Below, piece after piece: positions 7,387-31,530 of a DNA stretch of 64,000 nt (within the stretch, counting starts at the first letter, position 1; every line of letters begins with the position of its first letter). The notes under the pieces are model-generated. The model saw only the letters and a program-made list of their open reading frames with translations, did not search any database and was not told the DNA's origin. Source of the stretch: Hydrogenovibrio crunogenus (GTDB lineage Bacteria > Pseudomonadota > Gammaproteobacteria > Thiomicrospirales > Thiomicrospiraceae); assembly GCF_004786015.1 (NCBI RefSeq), contig NZ_CP032096.1, positions 248,001 through 312,000 on the forward strand, in the 5' to 3' direction. The position numbers and the translations under genes are program-made.

Positions 7387-7965
7387 ATGAGCGACATCGC
7401 GCAACTCAAACAAGATATTGTTTTTCAGGCTGAATTGAAAGGCAAGCCGCTGACCTTTCATACCACTTGGGGTATTTTCAGTCCGAGAGAAATTGATTCC
7501 GGCACGTGGTTGTTGCTCAAACATTTGGATTTAAAACCGCAAGAAACGGTATTGGATATAGGATGTGGATATGGTCCTCTTGGTTTGGCGATAGCCGCAA
7601 ATACGCAAGGCGAAGTGCATATGGTGGATAAGGATTTTGTCGCGGTGGAGTACGCGAATAAAAATGCCGAGTTGAATGGATTGACGCATGCCAAAGCGTA
7701 TTTGTCTAATGGCTTGAGTAATGTGCCGAAAGAGTTGAAGTTCAGTACCGTGGTGTCCAATATTCCAGCAAAAGTGGGAAAAGAAATGCTGAGCATTCTG
7801 CTGCATGATGTACATGAACAGCTTGAACCCGGCGGACAATTTGTGGTGGTAACCATCAACGGATTAAGACAGTACATGAAGCGAAACTTCATGGAAGTGT
7901 TTGGCAATTATGACAAAGTCAAACAAGGTAAAGACTATACGATTTCACGGTGCGTGAAAGCTTGA
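7387..7965 (+). CDS. RsmC-like class I SAM-dependent methyltransferase
   Basis: 192 residues forming a single Rossmann methyltransferase (MTS) domain. The SAM-binding motif is DIGCGYGPLG (about 58-67), and VSNIPAK occupies the position of the NPPF catalytic loop of rRNA guanine-N2 methyltransferases. It lacks the extra N-terminal domain of RsmC (about 340 residues) and so resembles the short single-domain relatives. The target is probably an rRNA or other RNA guanine, but the motif is not canonical. It is divergent from rep; the ATG at 7387 has AAAGG upstream. Confidence 0.75.
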   Translation: MSDIAQLKQDIVFQAELKGKPLTFHTTWGIFSPREIDSGTWLLLKHLDLKPQETVLDIGCGYGPLGLAIAANTQGEVHMVDKDFVAVEYANKNAELNGLTHAKAYLSNGLSNVPKELKFSTVVSNIPAKVGKEMLSILLHDVHEQLEPGGQFVVVTINGLRQYMKRNFMEVFGNYDKVKQGKDYTISRCVKA

Positions 7966-8040
7966 ATCTTAATCAAGCAAAGTATCGTTAAAATGGATAC
8001 AATCATTCCAATCTAATTCTAGAAGTACAAAAGGCGACAC

Positions 8041-8961
8041 ATGAAAAAAGTAACACTTTGGCTTTCAATGATCACATTTACATTTTTTGCGACCATGCAG
8101 GTCGCAGAAGCAAAGCGTTTTGGTGGCGGGGGTAGTTTTGGTTATTCAAAACAAATCGCACCTAAAAAATTTAATAGCACCAAACCCAGTTCAAAAACCG
8201 ATGCGGCCAATGCGAAAAGCAATACCACGGCGGCGGGCACTAGACCATCTGGCGCTTCAAGATTTTTAGGGCCTTTAGCAGGTATTGCAGCGGGTGGTTT
8301 GTTGGCTGCGATGTTATTTGGCGATGGATTTGATGGTATTCAGTTACTGGATATCATGCTAATTGCGTTGGTGGCATTCTTGCTGTTCAGCTTTTTGAAA
8401 AAACGTCAGGCAGCCATGATGCAACCGGCTTATTCTCGTGCCCCGTCACATTCAGCTTACGAAACGGAATCTCGCCAAACGGTGGAGCAAATGCGTGAAA
8501 CTCATGTGCCGACTTATGAACCAAATGCAAGCGGAAGCATCATTGGGTCTGCCTTGCCAGAACAAGCAGACCTTACCTTGGAAAAACCAGAATGGTTTGA
8601 TGAAGCGAGCTTTATAGAGGCATCTAAAGAGCATTTTAGAGCTGTTCAGAAAGCGTGGGATACTCTAGATGCCCGAGAATTGACAGATTATTGCACGCCG
8701 GAACTCTTTGCCGCATTGCAGTCTGAGATGGATTCTCTTCAAGCTGGAGAAAATCATACTGAGGTTGATGAGTTGAATGCTGAAACAGTCGATATGGCTG
8801 TTGATGGCGAATATTTTATCGTCAGTGTACGTTTCAGCGGCTTTATTAAAGAAGAACGTAATGACGTGGCCCATGCTTTTAATGAAATCTGGCATATTCG
8901 CCGCTTAGCTGTTGGAGAGGGCAATTGGCAAATTGCCGGTATTCAGCAAAACCAGATTTGA
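8041..8961 (+). CDS. Tim44-like domain protein, membrane-associated
   Basis: 306 residues. The signal peptide ends near AEA (about 24). A Gly/Ser/Lys/Thr-rich region follows (25-75), then two hydrophobic segments (about 78-94 and 98-118). The C-terminal domain (about 170-305: WFDEASFIEASKEHFRAVQKAWD..., EIWHIRR) matches the Tim44-like fold seen in bacterial COG4395-type proteins. The molecular role of bacterial members is not established. It stands between a methyltransferase and a lipoprotein gene in the same orientation, with gaps of about 75 bases each side. Confidence 0.75.
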   Translation: MKKVTLWLSMITFTFFATMQVAEAKRFGGGGSFGYSKQIAPKKFNSTKPSSKTDAANAKSNTTAAGTRPSGASRFLGPLAGIAAGGLLAAMLFGDGFDGIQLLDIMLIALVAFLLFSFLKKRQAAMMQPAYSRAPSHSAYETESRQTVEQMRETHVPTYEPNASGSIIGSALPEQADLTLEKPEWFDEASFIEASKEHFRAVQKAWDTLDARELTDYCTPELFAALQSEMDSLQAGENHTEVDELNAETVDMAVDGEYFIVSVRFSGFIKEERNDVAHAFNEIWHIRRLAVGEGNWQIAGIQQNQI

Positions 8962-9035
8962 TATTTTCCTGTTTAATTTGATAAAGCGTGACCGTTTGAG
9001 TATATTTTGCGCAGGACTTGTTAAAAGGAGTGAAT

Positions 9036-9497
9036 ATGATGAGTGACCGCCGAATTAGAAATCTCGGGCTAATCATACTAACTTTGCTGATGTCAGTAGG
9101 GTTGGGCGGTTGCTCAAAGCCGCCGGTTGAAGTTACCTCTGTGCAGATTGTGGACAATCTGGACAAAGGTTCCGGAAACTTCGACCGCATGCTTCAGATT
9201 TGTTTTAAAAAACCTTTGACGGCCGATTATTACCATCATGTCAAAATCATAACCAACCAATCTTACATGCTGGAAGGGGGCAATATGTTACGCCCACGGG
9301 CCTCGGATCCGGACAATAAATGCCAGCTTCGAAATCTTTATAATTACATCAATAAAGATTCCCCTGTCGGTGCTCGTCAAATGATTAAAGATTTCATGGT
9401 GCCGGGCAATATTAACCAGGTTTTAATCCAGATTTATCTGGATGAGCCAGAAGGAAAAGAGCTGCCGATTGAAGAGAAGTTGTTTAGAAATCTTTAA
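9036..9497 (+). CDS. Predicted lipoprotein of unknown function
   Basis: 153 residues from the ATG at 9036, with AAGGAG at 9025-9030; a second ATG at 9039 is equally possible. An upstream in-frame TTG at 9018 lies before the ribosome-binding site and was rejected. The N-terminus has an Arg pair, a hydrophobic helix and the lipobox VGLGGC, so the mature protein should start at Cys and be membrane anchored. The remainder has no recognised motif. Two further Cys (ICF and KCQL) could form a disulfide in the periplasm. A terminator hairpin follows immediately. Confidence 0.75.
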   Translation: MMSDRRIRNLGLIILTLLMSVGLGGCSKPPVEVTSVQIVDNLDKGSGNFDRMLQICFKKPLTADYYHHVKIITNQSYMLEGGNMLRPRASDPDNKCQLRNLYNYINKDSPVGARQMIKDFMVPGNINQVLIQIYLDEPEGKELPIEEKLFRNL

Positions 9498-9541
9498 ACT
9501 CTTTCATCGTTTGCGTTTTTAGGTTGGATAGACTCAAACCC

Positions 9542-9580
9542 AGGCCTGGTAAGATTTTCTTATCAGGCCTTTATTTTTTC
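9542..9580 (+). terminator. Rho-independent terminator after the lipoprotein gene
   Basis: Arms AGGCCTGGTAA (9542-9552) and TTATCAGGCCT (9560-9570) pair with one G-U wobble around a 7-base loop and are followed by TTTATTTTTT. The left arm begins inside a CCAGGCCTGG palindrome copy (9540-9549). Confidence 0.85.
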
Positions 9581-9602
9581 ATTTAACAAGAATTGAACCC
9601 TT

Positions 9603-10643
9603 ATGCCGAACCCTGTTTCCTTATCTCATTTTGCCTATGCATATGGTCGCCCAGAAAGTGTTGCAGCATTAAAAGCCGAGCCAGCTGATTTTCAAGTAGA
9701 GGAACTGATTGCTTATGCGCTGAGTGGAGAAGGTGAGCATTTATGGGTTTGGGTGCAAAAAATTGGACAGAACACTGATTGGGTTGCCAAACAAATTGCC
9801 CGCTGGGCAGGGATTACCCCCAAAGAGATGGGGGTTGCAGGTAAAAAAGACCGTCAGGCGATCACCCGACAGTGGATGAGTCTTCATTTGCCTGGAAAAC
9901 AAGCGCCCGATATCGAAAGCCTGGACGTGCCAGGTGTCACGCTTTTAAAAGCAATCCGTCATCATCGAAAACTGCAAACCGGGGGCTTGTCGGGCAATCG
10001 ATTCACGCTCGTATTGCGTGACATTGAAGGTGATTCGGATCAAATTGAAAGCCGCTTGCAGAAAATTGCAGAAAAAGGTGTGCCGAATTATTTCGGAGAA
10101 CAGCGCTTTGGAAACGATTTTCAAAATCTTGCGAAAGCCACGGCCTTGTTTCAAGGTCAGATAAAATCTCCAAAACGCCATCAGAAATCTTTATACATTT
10201 CCGCAGCACGGTCTTGGATTTTTAATGAAATTTTGAGTGAACGTGTGCGTCAAGGTTCTTGGAACCGTGCAGTTCCTGGAGATGTCTTCCAGCTAGAAGG
10301 GTCTCAGAAATGGTTTGCTGATGATGGTGATCCTGCTTTGTCCAAGCGAGTTGTCGAAAAGGATCTACACCCTACCGGTGCGTTAACCGGTCGAGGTGTA
10401 TTGCCCTCTCAGAGTGGCGCTTTTCAGGTAGAACAATCCGTGTTGGAGAAGCATCCGATCTGGCAGGCCGGGTTAGAAAAGCTTGGTTTAAAGCAAGAGC
10501 GTCGTGCTTTAAGGGTTTTACCGAAAGAAATGCGTTGGGAGTGGCTAGATCAGTCCACCTTATCTGTGAGCTTTGCTTTGCCGGCTGGCAGTTATGCAAC
10601 AATGGTGATACGTGAATTATTTGAGGTCAAGCTGGAAGATTAA
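9603..10643 (+). CDS. truD: tRNA pseudouridine(13) synthase TruD
   Basis: 346 residues, the usual TruD length (E. coli about 349). The catalytic Asp motif is GVAGKKDRQAITRQ (Asp about residue 82). Also present are HLWVWVQKIGQNTDW, GNRFTLVLR and PNYFGEQRFG, all TruD signatures. It converts U13 of tRNA-Glu to pseudouridine. The start is the ATG at 9603; no strong Shine-Dalgarno is seen. A bidirectional hairpin separates it from the convergent hisI. Confidence 0.95.
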   Translation: MPNPVSLSHFAYAYGRPESVAALKAEPADFQVEELIAYALSGEGEHLWVWVQKIGQNTDWVAKQIARWAGITPKEMGVAGKKDRQAITRQWMSLHLPGKQAPDIESLDVPGVTLLKAIRHHRKLQTGGLSGNRFTLVLRDIEGDSDQIESRLQKIAEKGVPNYFGEQRFGNDFQNLAKATALFQGQIKSPKRHQKSLYISAARSWIFNEILSERVRQGSWNRAVPGDVFQLEGSQKWFADDGDPALSKRVVEKDLHPTGALTGRGVLPSQSGAFQVEQSVLEKHPIWQAGLEKLGLKQERRALRVLPKEMRWEWLDQSTLSVSFALPAGSYATMVIRELFEVKLED

Positions 10644-10660
10644 GCGTTTGAACGTTAATG

Positions 10661-10688
10661 AAAAATGACCAGGCCTGGCCATTTTTTG
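10661..10688. terminator. Bidirectional terminator between truD and hisI, containing CCAGGCCTGG
   Basis: AAAAATG-A-CC and GG-C-CATTTTT flank the central AGGCCT. The inverted repeat has one A/C mismatch, with A-tracts and T-tracts on both sides, so it can serve both convergent genes. The exact palindrome is at 10669-10678. Confidence 0.8.
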
Positions 10689-10701
10689 ATTCAGAAAACG
10701 G

Positions 10702-11145
10702 TTATTTTTTGTACAGCGCTTCAGGATCAATAATCGGGTTGGTTAAGATTTCGGCCTGATGGTCATGAATGGCGGTGTAAAAGCAGCTCTTCCGTCCGGT
10801 ATGGCAGGCTGGGCCTGTTTGATCCACCAACAACAAAATGGCATCGCCGTCACAGTCAAAACGTAGGTCTTTTAAAAGCTGAATTTGCCCGGATTCTTCC
10901 CCTTTACGCCAGTAAGACTGACGTGAACGTGACCAGTAACAGACACGTCCAGTTTCCAAAGTTTCTTGCAACGCGGCTTCATTCATCCAAGCCATCATTA
11001 AGACTTCTTTGCTGTCGAATTGCTGCGCAATGGCTGGGATCAGACCATTATCGTCATATTTGACTTGTTTTTTAACGGCTTCCCAGTCAAACGAATCGCC
11101 TTGTTGCGCTTTTTCCAGTTGTTTGAATGTGGGCTGTTGTGACAT
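10702..11145 (-). CDS. hisI: Phosphoribosyl-AMP cyclohydrolase HisI
   Basis: 147 residues, the monofunctional form without the HisE domain. Conserved elements are [35 protein letters not shown] (metal-binding Asp/Cys) and [11 protein letters not shown] (zinc Cys). It opens the purine ring of phosphoribosyl-AMP in histidine synthesis. It lies 11 bases downstream of an exonuclease gene on the same strand and is far from other his genes in this window. Confidence 0.95.
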
Positions 11146-17806: not shown

Positions 17807-18940
17807 CTAAATTTGGTATTTTTTGAATAAATGCGGTGCTGTTTGGTTCAGTAGTTTTGCAAACTGGCACAGCGCCCAACGCCGTTTTTGTGGCAAATGC
17901 TCTACATAAAAAGCGGTGTATTCTATTTCCGGTTCTCCGCCACGCATCCGTTTGAAAGCGCCCGCCCCTGAGCTTAAATTCATGAGAAGACCAGTTTCAT
18001 AAGTTTCTTTCAGCAAAACAGCCATCAGCAAACGATATAGGCCGAGAGACTTTGGTAGTTGTGTGTCGTATCCCAATATAGGCGAGGTGATGATGTCTTG
18101 TTGTGTCAATAATCCTATCGCAGCGACAATCCGCCCGGAAATACTTCGAAAACAATGAAAAGTGACCAGGCCTGCCTGATGTAGTGCTTGAAAATAGTCT
18201 GCCGTGAATTGTGGGTTGTAATGTGAGTGTTTTTCAATAAATAATTGGTTAAAACAGGTTTCGATTTCCTGGAAATCTTCGGGGAAAAGTTCTTCATTTG
18301 ATACATACTGTAAAGCGGTTTTGCGTAATAAACGCTGGTCGTTTTTGGTGTTATTACGTTTCCACCACTCCGTACTCTGGTTGTCGAACAAATACACTTG
18401 TCTGGCCGGAATCAGAAGCCAGCCTTGTTGTTGCAAGGTTTGCATTAATTCGGCATTGGTTCGGCGATTCAATGAACGGATGCTCAAGCTGTGATTGGGA
18501 TAACGTTGGCTCAGTGATTGTGTGAAATCCAATACTGTTTCCGATGACCAGTCCGGTACCAGATTGGTGGAAACCAGCCAATTATTAATTGAAACGGTTT
18601 GATTGATTTTTGCCAATTTCAACGCACCGCTGGCGAGCCCGATGACACTTTTTAACCCGGTTTCGAGTAAAAGATTATTGAGTACACCCAGTTCTTCTTT
18701 CGCATAAGAAATATAAGCGGTATAAGGAGAGCAGACATAACTGTTGTCATACTGCTCGGTGTTGATGGTGATCGGAACCAGGCGACCATCAATTTCTTCC
18801 AATTTGAGCTCGGTGTTGATATTGCGAATAGCATGGCGCAACCCTACCGTGTTCAAACTATTGTAGAAAGCCTGTGCCTCGCCTTGGGTTGTCAGGCCGG
18901 TTGTCTGGGAGTTCATCGGTTCGAGTTGTTCTAAAAACAT
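17807..18940 (-). CDS. GNAT/FemAB-like acyltransferase coupled to btaA
   Basis: 377 residues from the ATG at 18940, which overlaps the btaA stop (TAATG). The frame is open further upstream, but that part lies inside btaA. The C-terminal half (about 190-350) fits a CelD/FemAB-type GNAT fold: a charged WWKRNNTKNDQRLLRK stretch, FHCFRSISGRIVAAIG, and GLYRLLMA followed by NLSSGAGAFKRMRGG. The substrate is unknown. One-base overlap with a betaine-lipid enzyme suggests it acts on the same lipid or a precursor, but this is inference from context. A near copy of the palindrome element lies at 18166-18174. Confidence 0.65.
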   Translation of the reverse strand: MFLEQLEPMNSQTTGLTTQGEAQAFYNSLNTVGLRHAIRNINTELKLEEIDGRLVPITINTEQYDNSYVCSPYTAYISYAKEELGVLNNLLLETGLKSVIGLASGALKLAKINQTVSINNWLVSTNLVPDWSSETVLDFTQSLSQRYPNHSLSIRSLNRRTNAELMQTLQQQGWLLIPARQVYLFDNQSTEWWKRNNTKNDQRLLRKTALQYVSNEELFPEDFQEIETCFNQLFIEKHSHYNPQFTADYFQALHQAGLVTFHCFRSISGRIVAAIGLLTQQDIITSPILGYDTQLPKSLGLYRLLMAVLLKETYETGLLMNLSSGAGAFKRMRGGEPEIEYTAFYVEHLPQKRRWALCQFAKLLNQTAPHLFKKYQI

Positions 18941-20193
18941 TATGCAACCGACGAAAGCGTGTAAGCATGCACTCCGCCGTAAATGGCAGAACGATCTTGC
19001 TGGGTCCAATGATGATTGGCTTCAATGTCGGTCGACCAGTTAGCCAATAATGATTCAGGAAGTTTTGCTTCCAGTGGGGAGGTTTCTCCTGCGGTACGAA
19101 ACACGACTTTGGCTCCTGGCATAGCCGTTCGGTTGACTTCCTGCCAAAGCTCAGTCAGTTGCGACGTGTCCATCCAGTCTTGGGCATCTAAAAATAAATA
19201 AGCATTCAGGCTGTTGGCTGGCGTGGCTTTAAGTCGATCCGTCATTGATTGATGGAAAACATGAATGCGATCAATGTCTTGTTTTAAGGTTTCAAAAGAT
19301 TCTTTTTTTAAATAACGCGGTAGAGCACGTCGGTATTTAATGTCATATTCACGGTTAAATGCTTGCCAGGCAAAGTAGTTATCTTCCAACGGAAAGTCGC
19401 ATGCCAAGCGTCTGGCACGCTCTTTCAGTAAATCATGCATGCCGTATTGCCCTTGTTTAGATTCTTTATCCATTTCATCAAATTGTGCGGGTGGAATGCC
19501 TAAGCTGTACATTACCACCGAGCGATTGCACAAAAACTTCATTAAACGGGTATCAAATACCGGTGCCACATGTTTTGCAAATAACATATGCTGGTCTTCT
19601 CGTGTTCTGGCCTGCATTACTTGTCGAATGTCGTAGCCCAAAGATTTGCTGAGCCAATGAATCAAGCCAATAAACCGTCCAAGTAAACCATGACGATAAA
19701 ACCCACTGGTAAAGTACTCAATGCGGCGAGGCCCCCATAGCGTTTCTTTACCTTCCCAGTAATCCAATGTCGCCTGGTCTAAATTGGGCTGGATGTGAAT
19801 TTGGTAGCTGTCCATATTTTTTTGCAGGTTGGCGCGACCAAAAAAATCAAAAAACGATTCATAATCTGGCAAATGTTTTAAAGCCACTTTTTTTAATTGA
19901 ATCAAAGAGATATGGGCCTCATTTAAATCGACTACGGTAATGGATGTCGGCTCCACCGTCAGATAATTCAGGGCATTACATCCGCCGGATGAGATGGTGA
20001 AGATTCGAGAATCATGGTTTAGCGACAACGCTTTGATATCAACCTCCGGGTCTTCCCAAATTTGAGGGTATACCAATCGGTCAAACCATCGGGTAAACAA
20101 GCGATCTAAAACCCCTTTTCGGCTGAAAATAGAGGCATTGTTAACGGCGGAATTCAACAATTCTTTGGTCGCAGGTGTCGCAGACGTTGTCAT
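18940..20193 (-). CDS. btaA: BtaA-like S-adenosylmethionine:diacylglycerol 3-amino-3-carboxypropyltransferase (DUF3419)
   Basis: 417 residues from the ATG at 20193, close to the known BtaA length of about 413; AGAGAG lies upstream. The frame continues to 20334 but lacks conserved sequence there. Family hallmarks are YPQIWEDPEVD near the N-terminus, a SAM-binding loop FTISSGGCNALNYL, VDLNEAHISL, and a late LDAQDWM block. BtaA moves the aminocarboxypropyl group of SAM to diacylglycerol, giving the homoserine lipid head group of betaine lipids. The usual partner methyltransferase BtaB is absent here, and a GNAT-like gene follows instead. Confidence 0.85.
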   Translation of the reverse strand: MTTSATPATKELLNSAVNNASIFSRKGVLDRLFTRWFDRLVYPQIWEDPEVDIKALSLNHDSRIFTISSGGCNALNYLTVEPTSITVVDLNEAHISLIQLKKVALKHLPDYESFFDFFGRANLQKNMDSYQIHIQPNLDQATLDYWEGKETLWGPRRIEYFTSGFYRHGLLGRFIGLIHWLSKSLGYDIRQVMQARTREDQHMLFAKHVAPVFDTRLMKFLCNRSVVMYSLGIPPAQFDEMDKESKQGQYGMHDLLKERARRLACDFPLEDNYFAWQAFNREYDIKYRRALPRYLKKESFETLKQDIDRIHVFHQSMTDRLKATPANSLNAYLFLDAQDWMDTSQLTELWQEVNRTAMPGAKVVFRTAGETSPLEAKLPESLLANWSTDIEANHHWTQQDRSAIYGGVHAYTLSSVA

Positions 20194-20260
20194 AAAAAGA
20201 CTCTCTTTTAAATGATTATTTAGTGTCCGTTCTATGCTATAACGAAAATCTTGCGGCCAA

Positions 20261-20278
20261 ATGACCATCTTGTAACAG
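20261..20278 (-). promoter_or_regulatory. Possible Pho-box-like direct repeat upstream of btaA
   Basis: On the minus strand CTGTTAC-AAGA-TGGTCAT has the 7-4-7 layout of a PhoB box and matches CTGTCAT at 10 of 14 positions. It lies 68 bases upstream of the btaA start. BtaA is phosphate-regulated in some bacteria, which makes this plausible, but the match is weak. Confidence 0.3.
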
Positions 20279-20328
20279 TTATTTGATAAAAATATGAATC
20301 TGGTCGTTTCATTTGAAATAACCCGCTC

Positions 20329-20344
20329 TGGCACTTTAACTGCA
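20329..20344 (+). promoter_or_regulatory. Candidate sigma-54 (-24/-12) promoter for the MBL-fold gene
   Basis: TGGCAC-N5-CTGCA on the plus strand. The GG and GC doublets are exactly 10 bases apart, as required for RpoN promoters, with one mismatch from TGGCAC-N5-TTGCA. The expected start would be near 20355, giving a leader of about 60 bases before the ATG at 20418. Confidence 0.4.
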
Positions 20345-20417
20345 TGTTTGTTGCATAGTGTGGAAGGTGATATGACGTTAGACTACTGCTATGGTTTCCA
20401 ATGAAGGAGAAAGCACA

Positions 20418-21539
20418 ATGTTGTTTAGAAAGTCGATGATGTTTTTGGGTGGTGTGTTGTGTTTCTCACCTTTGTTAAGCCAAGCCAATGCCGCTCAAAA
20501 CCAAGACCCTTATGTGGCGAGTTTCGAAACCTATGCCAAGGAAGTGGCGGCAATCAATCAACATTCGGACGCGAATCAGGCCTTCCAAACGTATGCTCAG
20601 GAAGTGGCCAGTGTCGAAAAATCCGTGGGGTATATTGGTAATGAACTGCCGATTCCAAAAGCTACTAAAGTGATGGATGGTGTTTATACCGTGGTGGGTA
20701 GTTTTATCTGGGGAACGCGCGCCAATTTTGGTTTGAACAATAATTTATCGGCCATTATTTTTAAAGATGGTGTCTTTGTGTATAACGGTGGGCCGAATGA
20801 AGCGGTGGCATACAGTTTTCACCAACAAATCAAACGATTGACGAACAAGCCTGTGAAATGGCTGGCAGTGGAAAATGACCAGGGGCATGCTTATTTTGGT
20901 GCCAGCTACTGGACTGACGTCGGTGTCAAAAACCTTTACTCACAAAAGCGTGCCAATGAAAACTGGCATCGAATTTTCGAGCGGACTAAAGAACGTTATT
21001 CGGCTGCTAGGGGGCGAGCAATTACTCAATCCGTGCATGATGTCACGTCACGTTTTACAACTTTTGAAGATCGTAAGACGATTGATGTAGGGGGCGGAGA
21101 AACAGTGGAATTGATTAATTTTGGGGGTGGGCACACACCGAGCATGACCGGTATGTATATTCCTTCTCGTCACTTACTTTTTACGGGTGATCTAGGGTTT
21201 AATGAAAGACTTCCCGGGTTATTGCATGACAGTCATTATAAAGATTGGATTCGTTCCTTTGAGAAAATGATGGCGATGGTGCCAAATGATGTCACGGTTA
21301 TTCCAGGGCACGGCACGCCAACGGATATGGCAACGGTGAAGCGACAAACTTATGATTATTTTGTCGACCTGATTGCAGAGGTACAAAAAGTAGTGGATCG
21401 AGGCGGAGATATTGAAGAGGTGGATGCGATTGATCAGTCCAAACATAAAGACCGTCCAGTTTTCGACCAGCTAGCCAAAGAAAATGCGCGCCATATTTAT
21501 CGTGAAATGGTGGCAGAAAAAATGAAGAACTCTCCCTAA
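20418..21539 (+). CDS. Exported MBL-fold protein with degenerate metal motif
   Basis: 373 residues from the ATG at 20418, with AAGGAG at 20404-20409; an in-frame ATG at 20391 precedes that site and was rejected. A signal peptide ends near ANA (about residue 26). The fold is metallo-beta-lactamase: GGHTPSMTG, LFTGDLGF and VIPGHGTP supply the later His, Asp and His. The first motif, normally HxHxDH, reads ENDQGH, so two His and the Asp are missing. Two short similar segments (SFETYAKEVAAI and AFQTYAQEVASV) lie near the N-terminus. Function is unknown. It is divergent from btaA and has its own terminator. Confidence 0.75.
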   Translation: MLFRKSMMFLGGVLCFSPLLSQANAAQNQDPYVASFETYAKEVAAINQHSDANQAFQTYAQEVASVEKSVGYIGNELPIPKATKVMDGVYTVVGSFIWGTRANFGLNNNLSAIIFKDGVFVYNGGPNEAVAYSFHQQIKRLTNKPVKWLAVENDQGHAYFGASYWTDVGVKNLYSQKRANENWHRIFERTKERYSAARGRAITQSVHDVTSRFTTFEDRKTIDVGGGETVELINFGGGHTPSMTGMYIPSRHLLFTGDLGFNERLPGLLHDSHYKDWIRSFEKMMAMVPNDVTVIPGHGTPTDMATVKRQTYDYFVDLIAEVQKVVDRGGDIEEVDAIDQSKHKDRPVFDQLAKENARHIYREMVAEKMKNSP

Positions 21540-21752: not shown

Positions 21753-24700
21753 ATGCTCTTAAGGTTGTATAAAGAATCTTTTGTGACTTCTTGGAAGAAA
21801 GGTGGAAAGGTTTTTGCGTTAACCTTTTTGCTTGGCATCTGTGTGGTATTCTTCTTTATTTATATTTATCTGCTGGTTGATGCCGAAGGCAAAAAAGAGC
21901 GTATCCAACTTCACAATGAACACCTGTCTTTAGCAGCCGATACCCTCATTAATGAGTGGGTTGGTGGTATGGCGCAAAATGTCTTGTTTCTGGCAGAAGA
22001 AACCACCAGCCTGACTCAAAATTCTCCCCGTCTTAATCTGACACTTTTAAGAAATCTTTACTTTAACTTTATCAATCATCAACAGGTACTGGGACAGATT
22101 CGGTATATCAGTAATGCGGGTCAAGAAATGATTCGTTTTAACCAGACGCCTGCGGGAGTAAAGGAAGTTACTTCTGAACATCTGCAGGATAAGTCAACGC
22201 GTTACTATTTCAAAGATGCGGTGGATCTTAAAAATGGGCAGTTGGCCATTTCGAAGCTGGATTTAAATATTGAAAATAATAGAGTTGAGATTCCTATCAA
22301 ACCGACATTGAGAATTTCAACGCCCATTTTTGACATTGAAGGCCAACGTCAGGGGGTGTTGGTGGTCAACTTTTTGGTTCATGATCTTCTGGCAAAACTC
22401 GATAATTTGAAAAGGGAATCACAGCAACAGCTCTGGATTGTCAATCAGCGGTTTGACTGGGTGTTGGCTCCGCCAGATCAAATGATTCTCGGTGAGCAAC
22501 AAGGGTTTCATCAGGATGATTTGTTTGCAAAATACCCTGAGTTGGCGAAAGTCTTAAGCATTGAACATTCACCGCCTTCTTTTTGGCACGAAGCGGGCCG
22601 CTTACTTTATGTCCATGCGATTCAGTTGTTCGACTCTCCTGAAGTGATGCAAAACGCAGTCATGAAAAATCGATCCGGCATGTTTTATATTATCTGCGTA
22701 ATGCCGGATTTACCTACCTGGTATACTCAATTATTACACGATGAACGCTTAAAACAATGGGCTGTTCAGCTCAGCATCTTAATCTTTCTTTTCTCTCTGG
22801 CGTTGGGGTTTTATGCCAACAAAAGTGCTAGCTTACAACGCCATAATCTTTATCAAAAGAAATTGTTCGATAACTTTTTTAATCGATCTCCTAACGGATT
22901 ATTTTTATGCGATCAAGACGGAGCAATTGTGTTTCAAAATGAAGCCGGTCACATTTTGATGTCAGAACTGGCGTTAAACAAAGTCTATACTGGGCTGCAA
23001 TTTTTTCACAAATCGTCGCGTCGTATTTTATGGCAGCAGCTGGCTGATGGAGTGCTTCCTGATCAAAACGAATTAACAATGATGGTGAATCGCAGAAAAC
23101 GCTGTTTCAGGGTGCAATGCTTTTTGATGAGTGCTGATGTGTTGGAGGCGCCACTTTTGGCTGTGGTTTTTTATGAGGTTACGCAACTTGTAGAAGCACA
23201 GCAAAAAATGAAAGACAGTGAAAGGCAGGTTCGGGCATTGTTAGACAGTGCCCCGGATGCGATTTTACTGTCTGACACCAATGGCAATATATACATGGCC
23301 AATAAAAAAGCCCAACAGTTGTTTGATATGACGTTAGATAACTTTTTAAATGCGACGATTGAAACACTGATTCCGATAGAAATTAGAAAACACCATGCGA
23401 TGCTCAGAGAAAAATACGCTAAAAACCCTCAAGAAAGAGTGATGTCCATGGGCACGGACTTTAAAGCGCAGAAAGCCAATGGCGCAACATTTGATGCGGA
23501 AATCAGCCTGAGTCCGATTACGATTAAGGGAAAACAACATGTCATCAGTATCATTCGAGATATTACAGAGCGTAAAAAATTGGAAAACGATGTCAGGCAG
23601 TCACAAAAAATGGATGCGCTTGGAAAACTGACCGGTAATCTCGCACATGATTTCAATAATTTTCTCACCACCATCATCGGAAACCTTGATTTATCGAAGT
23701 TACTACTGGAACAACCCGAACTCGATAAGTTGAAGCTTGAAGAGAAATTAAACGCTGCGGTGTCAGCGTCTGAAAAAGCTTCAAAGCTAACCCGACGCTT
23801 ATTAACCTTTGCACGACAACAACCGGTTTCGGAAAACTGTGTGTTGTTATTATCATTTTTAGAAGAGGAATCTCGCATTTTGGCAGCCGCTTCCGGCAAG
23901 CTGGTAAAGTTTGAAATTTGTCCAAGACGTTTTGCTTGGCCGATTATGGTTAATCGTGATGAATTGATGACGGCAATGCTTAACTTGTTGACGAATGCAA
24001 AGGATGCCATGCCGGGCGGGGGGAGTGTTTTTATTGATGTAGAAAACTTTATGCTGGAGGACAAAGGGTTTGATGTGTTAGGGGGAGAAATTCCTGTAGG
24101 CGATTATGTCATTTTATCGGTATCGGATACCGGTACCGGGATTGAAACGGAAAACTTAAATAGTATTTTTGAACCTTTTTTCACCACCAAACCTAAAAAT
24201 AAAGGCACAGGTTTTGGTTTGGCACAAGTTTTCAGTTTCATGAAACAGTCCAAAGGATTTATCAAGCTTTACACCGAGCAAGGTATCGGAACCACTTTTC
24301 AATTGTTTTTCCCGCGAGATGACAGTGAAGAATGTGTGAAGTTAATGTCCGGCATTCCACCTGAAACCCCAACTGTTTCTTCGTCCGTTATCGAAGTTGA
24401 TGATGCTTTTGATCCATCACAATTCAGTATTTTAGTGGTTGATGATGATGTGGGCGTTCGTGCACTGGCTGTTGAATATTTGGAAAGGGCGGGTTATAAC
24501 GTCATCACGGCTTACAGTGCGGACACTGCCTTGTCAGTATTAAGAAAACAGTCAGTAGATTTCATGTTGACCGATGTGGTCATGCCAGAAAAGAATGGTT
24601 TTGAATTGGCAAGCATAGTCGAATCGGAATATCCCGATGTGGATATTGTTTTCAGTTCAGGATTCCCTAAAGACATTCTCAACCAGGCCCGGTTACTGAA

Positions 24701-24812
24701 AAATAAAATGATTTTACTGGATAAACCTTATCGGAAATCCCATTTGTTAAGCATTGTTCAAAGTCGATTGATGTTACGCAAAGCAGCCTCAGAATCAAAT
24801 AACAAGAAATAG
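21753..24812 (+). CDS. Hybrid sensor histidine kinase (periplasmic sensor, two PAS, HisKA, HATPase, REC)
   Basis: 1019 residues. TM1 lies at about 20-42 and TM2 at about 330-352; they enclose a periplasmic sensor of about 290 residues, probably Cache-like. Two PAS domains follow (about 365-480 and 485-610). The H box is LAHDFNNFLTTIIGN (His about 632). ATPase motifs are NLLTNAKDAMPGGG, SDTGTGIE, EPFFTTK and GTGFGLAQ. A C-terminal receiver (about 890-1010) has acidic DDD and phospho-Asp in MLTDVVMPEKNG. It probably phosphorylates the response regulator encoded 8 bases downstream. The signal sensed is unknown. Confidence 0.92.
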   Translation: MLLRLYKESFVTSWKKGGKVFALTFLLGICVVFFFIYIYLLVDAEGKKERIQLHNEHLSLAADTLINEWVGGMAQNVLFLAEETTSLTQNSPRLNLTLLRNLYFNFINHQQVLGQIRYISNAGQEMIRFNQTPAGVKEVTSEHLQDKSTRYYFKDAVDLKNGQLAISKLDLNIENNRVEIPIKPTLRISTPIFDIEGQRQGVLVVNFLVHDLLAKLDNLKRESQQQLWIVNQRFDWVLAPPDQMILGEQQGFHQDDLFAKYPELAKVLSIEHSPPSFWHEAGRLLYVHAIQLFDSPEVMQNAVMKNRSGMFYIICVMPDLPTWYTQLLHDERLKQWAVQLSILIFLFSLALGFYANKSASLQRHNLYQKKLFDNFFNRSPNGLFLCDQDGAIVFQNEAGHILMSELALNKVYTGLQFFHKSSRRILWQQLADGVLPDQNELTMMVNRRKRCFRVQCFLMSADVLEAPLLAVVFYEVTQLVEAQQKMKDSERQVRALLDSAPDAILLSDTNGNIYMANKKAQQLFDMTLDNFLNATIETLIPIEIRKHHAMLREKYAKNPQERVMSMGTDFKAQKANGATFDAEISLSPITIKGKQHVISIIRDITERKKLENDVRQSQKMDALGKLTGNLAHDFNNFLTTIIGNLDLSKLLLEQPELDKLKLEEKLNAAVSASEKASKLTRRLLTFARQQPVSENCVLLLSFLEEESRILAAASGKLVKFEICPRRFAWPIMVNRDELMTAMLNLLTNAKDAMPGGGSVFIDVENFMLEDKGFDVLGGEIPVGDYVILSVSDTGTGIETENLNSIFEPFFTTKPKNKGTGFGLAQVFSFMKQSKGFIKLYTEQGIGTTFQLFFPRDDSEECVKLMSGIPPETPTVSSSVIEVDDAFDPSQFSILVVDDDVGVRALAVEYLERAGYNVITAYSADTALSVLRKQSVDFMLTDVVMPEKNGFELASIVESEYPDVDIVFSSGFPKDILNQARLLKNKMILLDKPYRKSHLLSIVQSRLMLRKAASESNNKK

Positions 24813-24820
24813 GATATTAC

Positions 24821-27352
24821 ATGAGTGTAAATGCGCTAGTCATTGATGATGAATTGTCAGTTGCAGAATTGATTTGCTCGGTTGGAGACATATTCAATGT
24901 GCCTTGTCGCATTGTGACGGATGCAACCGTTTTAAAAGCATCTGATCTGCAGCAGATTAATTTGATTTTTCTAGACTTATGGATGCCGGAAAAAGATGGC
25001 ATTGAAGTACTGGGATGGCTTCAACAACAAGAGTATAGCGGCGCGCTTGTGTTGATGAGTGGCGTGGACTCTTCCGTATTGATGAGTGCGGAAGGACTGG
25101 CATCTTCATATGGTATCAAAGTGGTTGGGCATTTAAATAAACCGTTTGATGTGGCTGCTGTTCAATCATTGATCAATAAAACAGAAGAGAGTTTGAGCAA
25201 AGAGTCTATTGAGTCGTCGGCCGTCACTGAAGAAGAAACGCTGATGAACCCTGTGCAAATACAGCAGGCTTTAGATGAAAATCGAGTTACGGTTTTTTAT
25301 CAGCCCCAAGTGGACTTAAATTCTCAACGGGTGGTGGGGTTTGAGGCCTTGGTAAGGATTTTGTCTGCTGAAAATGAAGTCATTTATCCGAAACGATTTT
25401 TATCGGTGGCAGAAGAGCATGGGCTTATTCATGAAATGACGCGTCAAGTGGTTGATCAAGCCTTGGGGCAATTTAAGGATTTATTGAATCAATACGGCCA
25501 GTTAACGCTTTCCATTAATTTATCCACACAAGACCTGGAAGACCTTGAGTTTGCCGATTGGTTGTATGAAAAGGTCGATGCTTTGGACATTCCCCGAGGC
25601 AAAATTGTTTTTGAAATCTCCGGAATTGAAAAACTACCCTCTTATTCCTTGGTGGTGGCGGGTCTTAGCCGTTTAAGGTTGAAAGGGTTTAAAGTGTCTT
25701 TGGATTATTTCGGTGCTGGCAATGTCACTTTGGAGCAGGTACAAACCTATCCCATTACCGAATTAAAAATTGACCCAAGTTTTGCCGTCAACATTTTGAT
25801 CGATGAAAAGTCTGCCATCCTGATTAAAAGCACTTTGCAGATGTGTCATGCTTTGGACTTGGATGTGGTTGTAATCGGCGTCGAAAGTGAAGCCATTGCT
25901 GCGCAGCTCAAGCTACTCGGCGCGCGGATTGTACAAGGGTATTGGTACTCGCGTTCGCTTAGCTTTGAAAAAACACTGGAATTGTTGGAACAGAATGAAG
26001 AAACCATGCCGGTTGAAACCGTCAATTTGTGTGCCTTAACCGAACAAGAGTCGACAGAGACCGAAGTCAAGCTTAATCAGCACGAGGATTCGCCGCCGCA
26101 CAAAGATGAGAATGAGCGTGTTTTATCAATGGTTGAAGCGCTTGAGACCAAATTAAACCTATCTGAAACCGCCCCGGTTGAGGGAAAGCAACTCAGCGAT
26201 GGCAAGCAATCTTCTCAACCTCAGGAGACCGCTTCAGCGAAGGACGTTGAAAATACGACGGTTACAAAGCACGACAAAGAGGTTAAAGAAGAAATACAGC
26301 AGGAAGAGGAATCTGCTTTAGCCCAATCCAAAATCAAATTGGGCAAAGCGACCCCACGCGCCATGCTAACCTTTATTTTGCCATTGACCGGTAAATTCAG
26401 TTTTATTGGGAACAGTCAAAAGTTCGGGATGATTTTGGCCTATCTTGCTGCATTTGAAGAACGTCGCACGGATTGCTATATCGGACTGGAGTTTTATGAT
26501 GATGCCTCTTCACTCGATCAGTTTTATACCTATGTGGAAAAGCATATTTCCTCCAAAAGTATCGGAATCATAGGCCCGTCTTTTTCATTGTTTGAATCAG
26601 AAGGCTTCGCTAAGAAAACCGCTGGTAGCAAATTGCCTATTATTGGTTCATTTAACAGTTGTGACGATTTAAGAAAACCCAATGCAAAAGGACTTTACAA
26701 CTTCAAACCTGGTGTCAGTGAAGAAATAAATCTGATTTTGGATCGATTGAAAGAAAACGGCAACAAGTCACTTTGCATTATTCCAAAAACCCGTGTGAAT
26801 ATGGGGCTGGATTTAATTCGCTCACGCATGGATGCGTCTGAAATCATCAACTATGACATGAAAGCGTTTAATCAAGTCATTCAAGCCGTGAAAAAACGAT
26901 TGCCAAACAAAGTGTTCTTTTTTGGTTCGGCCAGAGCAATGGTGAAGTTGATTGAAGAGGTGAATGATGAAAATATTCAATACTACACAACCTCGTTAGC
27001 CGGTACTGGAATGTTGAAAAAACTGCTATCCCGTCAAGGAAAACTCAATGTGATGGCCACCAGCCCGCTGCCTGATTTGCAAGGCGATACCATGGCCGCC
27101 AAGTTATTTCGTTCTCAGGCCAAAGAACGCCGAATACCGTCGAAGTTCATTAATATTATCAGTTTTGAAGCCTACCTGGTGACCAAGCTCGTTTTGGACT
27201 TATACATCAAAAACAGTCAGGATATGAATGCCAAGCAACTGAAAAAAGCGTTGGAAAATGTATTCAGTTATGACTTGGGACTGGATTATCCGGTTTCCTG
27301 GGCGCAGGAAAAAAGACAGCTGTTACATCATATTTACCTGAACAAGTTATAA
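24821..27352 (+). CDS. Response regulator REC-degenerate EAL-LivK-like binding-protein domain
   Basis: 843 residues with no signal peptide or membrane helix. REC at 1-125 has acidic D9/D10 and phospho-Asp D52 (IFLDLWMP). The EAL domain (about 145-390) keeps EAL (175-177), N233 and E265. The DDFG pair is D295-Y296 and the EGVE Glu is Ile352, so phosphodiesterase activity is doubtful. An acidic, Gln/Ser-rich linker covers about 395-505. Residues about 510-843 resemble a type I periplasmic-binding protein of the LivK kind (FILPLTGKFSFIGNSQKFG, EFYDDASS, IGIIGPSFS). Such a domain in a soluble cytoplasmic regulator is unusual. It is cotranscribed with the hybrid kinase. Confidence 0.85.
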   Translation: MSVNALVIDDELSVAELICSVGDIFNVPCRIVTDATVLKASDLQQINLIFLDLWMPEKDGIEVLGWLQQQEYSGALVLMSGVDSSVLMSAEGLASSYGIKVVGHLNKPFDVAAVQSLINKTEESLSKESIESSAVTEEETLMNPVQIQQALDENRVTVFYQPQVDLNSQRVVGFEALVRILSAENEVIYPKRFLSVAEEHGLIHEMTRQVVDQALGQFKDLLNQYGQLTLSINLSTQDLEDLEFADWLYEKVDALDIPRGKIVFEISGIEKLPSYSLVVAGLSRLRLKGFKVSLDYFGAGNVTLEQVQTYPITELKIDPSFAVNILIDEKSAILIKSTLQMCHALDLDVVVIGVESEAIAAQLKLLGARIVQGYWYSRSLSFEKTLELLEQNEETMPVETVNLCALTEQESTETEVKLNQHEDSPPHKDENERVLSMVEALETKLNLSETAPVEGKQLSDGKQSSQPQETASAKDVENTTVTKHDKEVKEEIQQEEESALAQSKIKLGKATPRAMLTFILPLTGKFSFIGNSQKFGMILAYLAAFEERRTDCYIGLEFYDDASSLDQFYTYVEKHISSKSIGIIGPSFSLFESEGFAKKTAGSKLPIIGSFNSCDDLRKPNAKGLYNFKPGVSEEINLILDRLKENGNKSLCIIPKTRVNMGLDLIRSRMDASEIINYDMKAFNQVIQAVKKRLPNKVFFFGSARAMVKLIEEVNDENIQYYTTSLAGTGMLKKLLSRQGKLNVMATSPLPDLQGDTMAAKLFRSQAKERRIPSKFINIISFEAYLVTKLVLDLYIKNSQDMNAKQLKKALENVFSYDLGLDYPVSWAQEKRQLLHHIYLNKL

Positions 27353-27472: not shown

Positions 27473-27904
27473 CTAAGTGGACATCAGCCAATCGAGCAAA
27501 CCGAGCAGGATGGCGTAACGGGCACCTTTTCCAATGAACACCAAAATTACAAACCAATAAAATCGTACCCGCATAATGCCGGCAATAAAGGTTAACGCAT
27601 CACCGAAAATAGGCGCCCAAGCCAACAATAGCGACCAGGTACCATAATGCTGAAACCAATGCTGACTGGCTTCAAGGGTTTTAGGTTTGATTGGAAACCA
27701 GCGTCGATTTTGGTAGTGTAATAAATAGCGCCCCAAAGCGTAATTCAGCATTGCACCCAGTGTGTTACCCAGTGTGGCCCAAAACCATAAATGCCACGGA
27801 TCATGTCCTGCAGAGGCCAGCCCCAGTAGTAATATTTCCGATCCTGCGGGTAACAGTGTTGCCGCTAAAAAAGAGACTAAAAATAGAGAAAGATAACTGT
27901 CCAT
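27473..27904 (-). CDS. YqaA/DedA-like (VTT domain) membrane protein
   Basis: 143 residues, mostly hydrophobic with four or five membrane segments. Family elements are the N-terminal FLAATLLPAGSEILL, WFWATLGNTLGAMLNYALGRYL, and FGDALTFIAGIMRVRF. This matches the short YqaA branch of the DedA/SNARE-associated (VTT) superfamily, whose members are implicated in lipid or envelope homeostasis. It is a single minus-strand gene between two plus-strand units. Confidence 0.85.
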   Translation of the reverse strand: MDSYLSLFLVSFLAATLLPAGSEILLLGLASAGHDPWHLWFWATLGNTLGAMLNYALGRYLLHYQNRRWFPIKPKTLEASQHWFQHYGTWSLLLAWAPIFGDALTFIAGIMRVRFYWFVILVFIGKGARYAILLGLLDWLMST

Positions 27905-28787: not shown

Positions 28788-28862
28788 TCCGTGTTAAGAA
28801 TTCATCGTTGCGTTTTTAACACAGTCATTCAAAAATTACGTTGTCAAAGAGGTCATTTTCTA

Positions 28863-29321
28863 ATGAAGCATTCACTTGTTGTTAACGATAAAAATTATTC
28901 GGTTGAAGCCGATTCAGATACGCCTCTCCTTTGGGTGCTAAGAGATCATTTGCAGTTAAATGGCACCAAGTTCGGTTGTGGCGAAGGCCTCTGTGGGGCT
29001 TGCACGGTATTAATTGACGGCAATCCTGTTCGCAGTTGCTCCTATCCTATTTCATCTTTAAAAGATCAATCGGTCATCACGATTGAAGGCGTCGATCCTG
29101 AGCACCCTGTGGTGCAGGCCTGGAAAGAAATCGATGTGCCACAATGCGGCTATTGTCAATCCGGGCAAATTCTATCCGCCGTCGACCTGCTAGACAAAAC
29201 GTCTAATCCAACCGATGAAGACGTGCAGTCAGCCATGAGAAATATCTGTCGCTGTGGAACCTATCCAGAAATTAAGAAAGCCGTTGAGCTGTCCACTGAG
29301 TTAAAGCGAAAGGAGGCGTAA
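28863..29321 (+). CDS. iorA: [2Fe-2S] subunit of a xanthine-oxidase-family molybdenum hydroxylase (IorA-like)
   Basis: 152 residues from the ATG at 28863, with AGAGG upstream. The frame extends upstream to 28791 but without conserved sequence. The plant-ferredoxin cluster is GCGEGLCGAC plus a later Cys (SCSYP). The second cluster has CGYCQSG and CRCGTY. This is the two-cluster small subunit that passes electrons from the molybdenum centre. Its stop is one base from the start of the large subunit. The homologous isoquinoline 1-oxidoreductase hydroxylates N-heterocycles; the substrate here is unknown. Confidence 0.88.
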   Translation: MKHSLVVNDKNYSVEADSDTPLLWVLRDHLQLNGTKFGCGEGLCGACTVLIDGNPVRSCSYPISSLKDQSVITIEGVDPEHPVVQAWKEIDVPQCGYCQSGQILSAVDLLDKTSNPTDEDVQSAMRNICRCGTYPEIKKAVELSTELKRKEA

Positions 29322-29322
29322 C

Positions 29323-31530
29323 ATGCAAGATTTAATGAAAAAGGCGTCAACAGAAGATTCCCAAGATTCATCCGTAACACACACCTCCAAAAACGTTCAG
29401 GTCGAAGTGATTGAACCTGAAAATCCGAGTCGCCGTGCGTTATTAAAAGCGGGCTTACTGGGAGTGGGTGGACTCGTGCTTGGTTTCAATTTACCGTCAG
29501 CCCAAAAAGCCTACGCAAAAACGGATGCTTCAACCTCAGACAGCTATCCGGTTAAAGGGTGGCTGCAGTTGGACGAAAGTGGTCAACTCGCCATGTTTAT
29601 TCCAGTTTCCGAAATGGGGCAAGGGTCACAGACAGCCATTACCATGATTTTTGCCGATGAATTGGGCGCGGATTATCAAAAGGTGGTGGTGAAGTCACCC
29701 ATTAATGATTCCCTTTACAACAATCCGATTTTTGGTATGCAATTAACAGGTGGGAGTACCGCTGTACGCGCATGGTGGGAGCCGATGCGTGTGATTGCGG
29801 CGACTTTGCGTGAGATGTTAGTTGAATCAGCTGCCAAGCAATGGCAGGTCTCCGCCAAGGAGTGTGACGTTAAAGAAGGCTTTATCCTCCATAAAGCAAC
29901 CCAACGTAAAATAGCTTTTCAGCATGTCATTGACACGGCTAAGTGGGTTCAACCCCCTAAAAGTCCTACCCTTAAGAAAGCAAGTGAATACCGTTACATT
30001 GGTAAACCCATGCACAGAGTGGATACGCCCAGTAAAGTGAATGGTACCGCGGTCTTTGGGATCGATGTTCAATTACCCGACATGCTGATTGCAACGGTTG
30101 CACAGTCACCGGTGTTTGGCGGGCAAGTAGACAGCTACGATGAAAAAGCCGCCAAATCCGTCAAGGGTGTGAAAGGTATCGTTAAAATTCCACATGGCAT
30201 TGCCGTGGTGGCCGACAGTTATTGGCAGGCCAAAAAGGGATTGGAAAAACTCAAACCGACTTTTAAAGACGGAGAGACAACCGGTCTCAATACCGACAAC
30301 ATCGAAAAACGTTTAAAAGACGGTTTAAACAAATCTGGTGAATCGGTGAAGTCGGCTCAAGCGGTGACCGATTTTGAACATAAATATGAAGCTGTCTACT
30401 CTGCACCTTATCTGGCGCATACTACGATGGAGCCGATGAACGCCACAGCGCATGTGACCGATTCCCATTGTGAAGTCTGGGCACCGACTCAAAACCAGGC
30501 ACAATCCGCTAAGGTCGCAGCGGATGTAAGCTTGCATCAGCCCGACCAAGTCACTATTCACACCACCTATCTTGGTGGTGGGTTTGGGCGCAGAGCCTTT
30601 GTTGATTATGTCGCGCAGGCCGTGACCCTTTCTATGGAAATGGAACGTCCGGTGAAAGTGATTTGGTCTCGTCCGGAAGACATTCAGCATGACTTTTATC
30701 GTCCTGCGGCGGTTTGTCAGTTTGACGTGAAAACGGATGCCAAAGGGTTGCCAGTTGAATGGAAAACCAAAGTAGTGTCCGATTCCACTATGGCCGAATT
30801 CACCAATGGTTCAGATACCATGATTGATGGTGCCATGTCTGAAGGGTTGGCTGATCAAGAGTATCAATTGCCGAATGTGTCATTGTCTGTCGTGCGTGAA
30901 GACATGAAAATTCCGGTTGGTTTCTGGCGTTCGGTCGGGCATTCCTACAGTGGCTTCTTTCTAGAAGGCATGTTGAATGATCTGGCGCAAAAAGCCGGCT
31001 TCGACCCTTTTGATTACCGACGTGCGCTGCTCAAGCCCGATTCAAGAACCGCAGGCGTGTTGAACCAATTGGAAAAACTCTCCGGTTGGAAATCCAAGTC
31101 AGCGGACAATATTGGAAAAGGCATGGCGGTTGTCGAAAGCTTTGGCAGCTTTGCAGGTGAAGTGGTTGAAGCGCACCTAGAGAACGGGAAAATCAAAGTG
31201 GATAAAGTCTATTGTGTGATTGACTGCGGTATGGTGGTGAACCCTGAAATCGTCAAAAGACAGATGAGTTCCGGCATTATCTACGGCCTCACGGCGGCAC
31301 TGAAAGGCAAGATTCATTTTGAACAAGGACGCGTTCAGGAAACCAACTTCGATAATTATCCGGCACTTACTATGGAAGAGAGCCCGGAAATTATTGTCGA
31401 GATTGTTCAAAGTGAAAATGGCCCCGGCGGTTATGGTGAACCTGGTGTTCCCCCCGTGGCACCTGCACTTGCCGCAGCCATCAGCCAGCTGACCGATAAA
31501 GTCTATCGAGAGTTACCGCTGAAGGTTTGA
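29323..31530 (+). CDS. iorB: Molybdopterin-binding large subunit of aldehyde/isoquinoline oxidoreductase type (IorB-like)
   Basis: 735 residues. A twin-arginine signal (SRRALLKAGLLGVGG, about 36-50) follows a 35-residue polar leader, so the enzyme is predicted to be Tat-exported with its iron-sulfur partner. Molybdopterin-binding motifs include GGGFGRR and QGSQTAI, and the active-site Glu lies in GGYGEPGVPPVAP near the C-terminus. The layout matches the single-chain IorB group and not cytoplasmic xanthine dehydrogenases. No FAD subunit or cytochrome gene is adjacent. The substrate is not predictable. Confidence 0.88.
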   Translation: MQDLMKKASTEDSQDSSVTHTSKNVQVEVIEPENPSRRALLKAGLLGVGGLVLGFNLPSAQKAYAKTDASTSDSYPVKGWLQLDESGQLAMFIPVSEMGQGSQTAITMIFADELGADYQKVVVKSPINDSLYNNPIFGMQLTGGSTAVRAWWEPMRVIAATLREMLVESAAKQWQVSAKECDVKEGFILHKATQRKIAFQHVIDTAKWVQPPKSPTLKKASEYRYIGKPMHRVDTPSKVNGTAVFGIDVQLPDMLIATVAQSPVFGGQVDSYDEKAAKSVKGVKGIVKIPHGIAVVADSYWQAKKGLEKLKPTFKDGETTGLNTDNIEKRLKDGLNKSGESVKSAQAVTDFEHKYEAVYSAPYLAHTTMEPMNATAHVTDSHCEVWAPTQNQAQSAKVAADVSLHQPDQVTIHTTYLGGGFGRRAFVDYVAQAVTLSMEMERPVKVIWSRPEDIQHDFYRPAAVCQFDVKTDAKGLPVEWKTKVVSDSTMAEFTNGSDTMIDGAMSEGLADQEYQLPNVSLSVVREDMKIPVGFWRSVGHSYSGFFLEGMLNDLAQKAGFDPFDYRRALLKPDSRTAGVLNQLEKLSGWKSKSADNIGKGMAVVESFGSFAGEVVEAHLENGKIKVDKVYCVIDCGMVVNPEIVKRQMSSGIIYGLTAALKGKIHFEQGRVQETNFDNYPALTMEESPEIIVEIVQSENGPGGYGEPGVPPVAPALAAAISQLTDKVYRELPLKV

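Follow-up and report, generated by a model that had tools for sequence, protein, structure and literature searches.

Type I periplasmic binding protein (PBP) domains normally act outside the cytoplasm, as the first-pass annotation of the locus studied here had stated, but cytosolic cases exist. AmiC is a cytoplasmic PBP-I amide sensor that controls an antiterminator, and a further cytosolic case comes from the genus studied here (L136, described in the last section). An extract of PMC9602780 also describes, in general terms, SBP-type domains as sensors of cytosolic signalling proteins. On the side of c-di-GMP signalling, the degenerate EAL domain of LapD acts as a c-di-GMP receptor according to an excerpt of PMC3032553, and RocR3 appears in an excerpt of PMC12051241 as a known REC-EAL protein with altered catalytic residues.

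Here we analyse a gene within a 64,000-nucleotide stretch of Hydrogenovibrio crunogenus DNA (the window) whose product joins a receiver (REC), an EAL domain and a C-terminal PBP domain. A REC-EAL-PBP protein is not named anywhere in the open-licence literature searched. We propose that it is a cytoplasmic RocR-type response regulator with a C-terminal Venus-flytrap, in which phosphorylation and a cytoplasmic ligand would both act on the EAL domain and the output of the window copy would be non-hydrolytic, a reading for which we hold confidence and doubt to be evenly balanced.

Organization of the locus

The open reading frame at 24821-27352 (+) runs from an ATG at 24821 to a stop at 27352 and encodes 843 aa; frame and coordinates are exact. 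Its parts, and the kinase gene that precedes it, are as follows.

21753..24812, + strand: membrane hybrid histidine kinase, 1019 aa, likely cognate kinase (Pfam; AHDFNN motif; conserved gene order)
24821..27352, + strand: REC-EAL-linker-PBP response regulator, 843 aa (ORF and Pfam)
24836..25171, + strand: receiver domain, residues 6-117 (Pfam Response_reg, 4.2e-8; residue table)
25256..25954, + strand: EAL domain, residues 146-378, catalytically degenerate (Pfam EAL, 1.5e-56; residue table, 16 proteins)
25997..26356, + strand: acidic, probably disordered linker, residues 393-512 (composition; pLDDT <50 throughout in the full-length model)
26363..27340, + strand: type I PBP (Peripla_BP_6) domain, residues ~515-840, cytoplasmic by sequence (Pfam, profiles, hydropathy)

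The linker has 27 D/E and 13 K/R in 120 residues and is longer than in the six homologues. Pfam places Peripla_BP_6 at residues 518-840 of the window protein (1.8e-7) with 31.6 bits, just below the cut-off of 31.7, and the genome-side scan gave 33.1 bits, above that cut-off. The joining of a PBP-I domain to REC and a degenerate EAL, already read from the DNA by the first-pass annotation, is borne out by Pfam and by comparison of a profile of seven homologous C-termini with solved binding proteins. That annotation had also proposed a search for the same architecture in other genomes, and we find it in six other loci from five other genomes; since the whole architecture recurs there, it is not a product of chance.

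The adjacent histidine kinase

The kinase gene (21753-24812), which was not part of the earlier annotation, ends 8 bp 5' of the REC-EAL-PBP gene. Its product consists of an HK_sensor/dCache-like N-terminal sensor, PAS, HisKA (with the AHDFNN motif), HATPase and a C-terminal receiver (Pfam). A kinase is also found immediately upstream in four of the six homologous loci, with gaps of 2-34 bp, and a hybrid kinase adjoins all eight stand-alone REC-EAL regulators examined (L112-L119; gaps -11 to 167 bp), these kinases being recognized by Pfam for L112, L113 and L119 and by the AHDFNN motif for L114-L118. Within the order, the N-terminal half of the window kinase is matched at E<1e-70 in only four of 62 genomes, each of which also has a REC-EAL-PBP protein; weaker matches occur in 29 of the 62, and in genome G043 a sensor half of 478 aa (E 2.1e-47) is present without REC-EAL-PBP. 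As half of a kinase/response-regulator module, the window protein has one of its inputs suggested by its neighbour.

The receiver of the window protein is complete in the residue table, with the phospho-acceptor Asp52 (24974-24976), Asp9/Asp10, Ser80 and Lys107. Asp52 is kept in the window protein and in L011, L012, L013 and L015, all five adjoined by a kinase. In the remaining two members, L014 (6957-9260) and L016 (7610-10027), Glu replaces the phospho-Asp and EAL residues are altered; no kinase was seen by eye in the 16 kb around each. When the eight stand-alone regulators are counted, the phospho-Asp is present in 13 of 13 proteins with an adjacent kinase versus 0 of 2 without one, which is a small number. 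For what so few cases can tell, the Asp/Glu split runs in the direction that a lost kinase would predict.

The PBP domain and its putative ligand

By Pfam alone the PBP assignment is marginal (Peripla_BP_6 is detected in five of the seven homologues at E<=0.01), and it is the profile built from the seven homologous C-termini, of 336 positions, that settles it. Among solved structures 4kv7 is matched at 5.1e-24, with positions 7-327 of the profile covered, 3lop at 8.3e-13 and 4m88 at 1.9e-6; the E. coli LIV-binding protein 2liv is matched at 0.0085 over positions 8-199, that is, over partial length. The profile comparison argues that the C-terminal domain is a type I PBP relative over its whole length. 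For the structure prediction that the first-pass annotation had proposed, AlphaFold2 on a two-row alignment of the window protein and L056 reached a pLDDT of 42.6 for the PBP part and 43.8 for the full protein. Because this two-sequence prediction failed for the PBP part, the assignment of the fold rests on sequence profiles; Foldseek on the poor model gave a best E of 4.4e-3 and no match at E<=0.001. The 50 matches listed include 3lop, 3hut and ribose-binding protein, but we draw no support from them.

In an alignment of the seven fused PBPs with 15 exported SBPs, G524, G530, G536, D560, G585, R618, N627, E635 and S725 are invariant in all seven fused domains, and R618, N627, E635 and S725 are so although identities fall to 20-26%. 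Three further invariant residues, N778, W827 and R832, are specific to the fused family. The G-[TS]-P-T loop present in 12 of the 15 nearest SBPs is found in none of the seven fused PBPs, position 563 is Ser in 7/7 fused domains versus Tyr in 13/15 SBPs, and the window protein departs even from its own family at P610S and G613S.

The first-pass annotation had called the domain LivK-like and suggested an amino acid as ligand. This part is not supported: the nearest relatives are 4kv7-type SBPs, and the P-A-x-T loop, which we take to be typical of LIV-type proteins, is missing. Ala100 and Thr102 of LivJ presumably belong to the loop that clamps the alpha-amino-acid group. The loop P-A-S-T of SBP L038, assumed to be LIV-type by its motif, aligns with S-F-N-S in the window protein and with P-[FY]-x-G in the other six members, and in 4n0q, a homologue of the LIV protein, P-T-A-T falls on p-f-n-g of the fused family. 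A LivK-style clamp is therefore absent, and the sequence does not support a branched-chain amino-acid binder of the LivK/LivJ kind.

Inspection of the genes around the nearest exported SBPs covered six loci (L088-L092 and L095). A HAMP sensor protein stands beside the SBP in three of them (L090-L092) and is a kinase in L090 and L092, an arrangement that we take to be TorT/TorS-like; by eye no kinase lies next to the SBP in L088, L089 or L095. The L090 locus (5760-10813) is a three-gene run of a REC-SpoIIE phosphatase regulator, an exported Peripla_BP_6 protein and a HAMP kinase with a TorS-type sensor. At L092 (8661-13653) a hybrid kinase with two REC domains stands by an exported SBP and is followed by a REC gene and a gene for a HisKA-REC-adenylate/guanylate cyclase protein. 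Another arrangement was noticed at L131:4411-6564, where a double binding protein of ~700 aa combines DctP and Peripla_BP_6 (Pfam). Proteins of ~700 aa at L132:3882-6035, L133:3916-6099, L134:5480-7570 and L135:4431-6620 resemble it by eye, and each of these five adjoins, again by eye, a GGDEF-EAL gene, that of L134 being split in two frames.

Distribution and evolution

In the 62 genomes of the order, the PBP profile finds seven REC-EAL-PBP proteins in six genomes, namely the window genome, G035 (two proteins), G039, G040, G046 and G047; G085 (partial) and G036 (19 bits, partial) were left out of the family count. The closest homologue of the window protein, L011/L056, shows 44% identity. Pattern-seeded contig scans, which reach close relatives only, returned only L056 (Thiomicrorhabdus sp. 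ZW0627) with A3 and no match with the whole window protein, and there was no match in viral contigs. Matches to the profile occur in 49 of 369 genomes of the class sample at E<=0.001 and in 54 of 398 genomes of the phylum sample at E<=1e-8, the window's own genome included in both counts. A fused frame, defined as one open frame in which the PBP profile and the REC-EAL profile each match at E<=1e-3, was found in none of 50 loci (49 beyond the order and L025 of G036, several being two cuts of one place), while all five known fused loci scored positive; matches beyond these 50 loci were judged by their listed frame length, mostly ~400 aa.

A tree of 22 PBP domains comprising the seven fused ones and 15 exported SBPs (picked by E-value and coverage, the weaker and mostly partial L042-L055 being omitted) places the fused domains in one clade with 100/100 support. 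The front halves behave differently. Their near relatives are the eight stand-alone REC-EAL regulators mentioned above, 396-421 aa long and each adjoining a hybrid kinase, and in a 16-part REC-EAL tree fused and stand-alone proteins are interspersed, with four label changes, two of them forced by well-supported branches; without the long rows L016 and L120 the count falls to two. The AU test (p 0.00056) rejects a single clade of the fused REC-EAL halves, long branches (L014, L016) being involved. A single clean fusion followed by vertical descent is weakened by this result, though the PBP halves form one clade. Because the fused REC-EAL halves intermix with kinase-adjacent regulators of 396-421 aa, the window protein is best read as a RocR-like module to which a PBP domain has been added. 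The tree suggests at least two events of PBP loss or of separate gain, and the simplest reading would be one fusion followed by PBP loss in some lines or by exchange of parts between paralogues.

These results bear on whether the PBP still senses anything. It might no longer bind a small molecule and instead serve as a platform for dimerisation or partner docking, with phosphorylation as the sole real input; we regard this as unlikely, though it is the strongest of the alternatives considered. The fused family has not kept the binding loops seen in the nearest SBPs, which speaks against the proposed sensor role and means that ligand binding could be lost: G-[TS]-P-T is absent and Ser563 present throughout, and the window copy adds P610S and G613S. 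The REC-EAL module, moreover, can evidently work without a PBP, given that this domain was probably lost or gained separately at least twice. Such a platform would not, on the other hand, readily account for the invariance of R618, N627, E635 and S725 in all seven members or for the family's own N778, W827 and R832, and the rebuilt loops fit the binding of another kind of ligand equally well. We keep to a ligand-binding flytrap as the preferred reading.

In two close relatives, G009 and G002, the homologues of 20391-21539 and 27473-27904 are directly adjacent, no other listed ORF of >=90 aa lying between them, and the two-gene cassette of kinase and regulator is absent. G040 and G046, two genomes of a different genus, have this kinase/regulator pair close to homologues of the window genes at 17807-20334, which hints at an old location with later losses; the cassette may instead have been acquired by transfer. 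The G+C content of the cassette (41.1 and 42.7%) is slightly lower than that of the flanks (44.8 and 46.2%) and of the window (44.3%). Further downstream, two adjacent genes at 28791-31530 were read by eye as encoding a [2Fe-2S] protein and a large molybdo-hydroxylase subunit, the latter with a strong match in one of the ten other genomes of the genus (G006).

Catalytic residues of the EAL domain

A residue table of 20 positions in 16 proteins (7 fused and 9 non-fused) was used to assess the EAL domain, the full catalytic/metal set being taken as the ten positions E175, N233, E265, E268, D295, D296, K316, E352, E355 and Q372. The window protein lacks three of these: E268 is replaced by Gly268 (25622-25624), D296 by Tyr296 (25706-25708) and E352 by Ile352 (25874-25876). 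The loss of the second Asp of DDFG (Tyr296) and of the Glu of EGVE (Ile352) had been recognized correctly in the first-pass annotation, which overlooked Gly268. E175, R179, N233, E265, D295, K316, D318, E355 and Q372 are retained, and so are most of the substrate-contact residues.

The degeneracy noted earlier thus holds for the window protein but not as a property of its family. All ten positions are kept in four of the seven fused members (L011, L012, L013 and L015), so that decay of the EAL domain is a feature of particular lineages; of the other two, L014 carries E352Q and D318H, and L016 carries E268N, D296N and E352K. All eight stand-alone regulators (L112-L119) keep the ten positions, and D296G and D318N occur in L120, which belongs to a protein of 1365 aa. 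Degeneracy as a rule accompanying the PBP was rejected, 3/7 fused versus 1/9 non-fused proteins (L120) being too few.

The window copy could be a former phosphodiesterase response regulator that has lost catalysis and is decaying towards loss. Its three catalytic replacements are not shared by the closest homologue L011/L056, the two close relatives have its flanking genes side by side without the cassette, and the PBP profile finds a REC-EAL-PBP protein in just one of the 11 genomes of the genus, the window's own. Decay is nevertheless improbable in our view: the frame is intact over 843 codons, the active site of the receiver and eight other EAL residues are retained, the kinase gene is an open frame that retains the phospho-His motif, and two other members have also lost EAL residues, which points to a new, tolerated role more than to plain decay. 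Low-level catalysis that persists despite the substitutions is more improbable by far. E175, N233, E265, D295, K316 and Q372 would allow for it, but mutants of ProE at E422, D450 and E506, which in our mapping, with a uniform shift of 154 in numbering, correspond to 268, 296 and 352, had very low or no activity, and the two residues that we match to 296 and 352 are probable metal ligands (both points from an excerpt of PMC7290235). A non-hydrolytic output remains our preferred reading for the window protein.

Cytoplasmic location

Hydropathy alone (Kyte-Doolittle, 19-residue windows) revealed no export or membrane segment in the window protein, in agreement with the first-pass annotation: the maximum of any stretch is 1.44, compared with 2.81 for the transmembrane helix of the neighbouring kinase. 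An extracytoplasmic PBP part, brought about by a hidden segment for export or by a second start, is scarcely credible. In its favour, the domain family is normally exported and residue 515 is a Met. Against it, no stretch exceeds 1.44, this Met stands at the domain start, the other six members have no Met there, and EAL and REC are cytoplasmic domains.

Proposed working of the REC-EAL-PBP protein

An outside signal would be sensed by the adjacent membrane kinase and lead to phosphorylation of Asp52. Separately from phosphorylation, a small cytoplasmic molecule would close the PBP domain, and the phosphorylation state and the PBP state would both act on the EAL domain that lies between them. 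Since the EAL catalytic residues are kept in four of the seven members, their output would probably be c-di-GMP breakdown with two gates. In the window lineage, where three catalytic residues are lost and most substrate contacts kept, the output would probably be binding of c-di-GMP or of a partner and not hydrolysis, with a logic like that of LapD or FimX. The most likely role would be that of a c-di-GMP binder or an adaptor, controlled by phosphorylation and tuned by a metabolite of the cytoplasm.

Against phospho-control as a general feature stand the two of seven members that have neither an adjacent kinase nor the phospho-Asp; in them the replacement by Glu would lock the receiver in one state. 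A bolder version of the proposal, which we put forward only tentatively, is that the family represents a two-component output with its own cytoplasmic metabolite sensor, that the window EAL is a c-di-GMP-reading pseudo-enzyme and that the kinase-less Glu members have the flytrap as their only input. If the PBP does bind a cytosolic ligand, the protein would be a response regulator that contains its own metabolite sensor. The family with its relatives would then offer a natural series (active or inactive, with or without kinase, with or without PBP) within one small order, in which the step from phosphodiesterase to receptor could be followed. The family could also be a source of cytosolic PBP-I domains for biosensor work.

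Comparison with known systems

The PBP part belongs to the same domain family as the exported 4kv7/3lop-type Peripla_BP_6 SBPs and shares with them the loop with G and L-R (613, 617, 618); some of these SBPs are likewise encoded in two-component settings, as in L090 and L092 beside sensor kinases. The exported SBPs, however, are separate proteins, most with hydrophobic N-termini, whereas the fused PBPs have no leader, lack the G-[TS]-P-T loop and are placed behind an EAL domain. With AmiC the window protein would share a PBP-I domain working in the cytosol, but AmiC acts on an antiterminator. The protein of genome G007 in the window's genus (L136:5241-8564, + strand; 1108 aa, no visible leader) also joins PBP-I to c-di-GMP domains, in the order Peripla_BP_6/5 (5-354)-PAS-GGDEF-EAL-BLUF, the last of these being a blue-light domain; it differs in its N-terminal PBP and lack of REC, and it was missed by the A1 profile.

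The likeness to LapD and FimX would be one of logic only, a non-catalytic EAL domain that probably still binds c-di-GMP. The window protein is a soluble REC-EAL-PBP protein without GGDEF, HAMP or transmembrane parts, and it keeps the first residue of the EAL motif, which LapD alters (excerpt of PMC3032553).

The closest counterpart is the RocR/PvrR type. The REC-EAL half finds its best solved match in RocR (3sy8, 8.2e-32) and its best family match in NCBIfam RR_EAL_PvrR, though at 205 bits, far below the cut-off of 580, so that it does not qualify as a PvrR equivalog. Shared with this type are the REC-EAL order, the N-terminal receiver with its phospho-Asp and, for the window regulator, the kinase gene beside it; the window protein adds a linker and a C-terminal PBP, and its EAL lacks three catalytic residues. 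The REC-EAL-PBP protein is thus a rare but real variant of the RocR-type response regulator and not a new kind of system.
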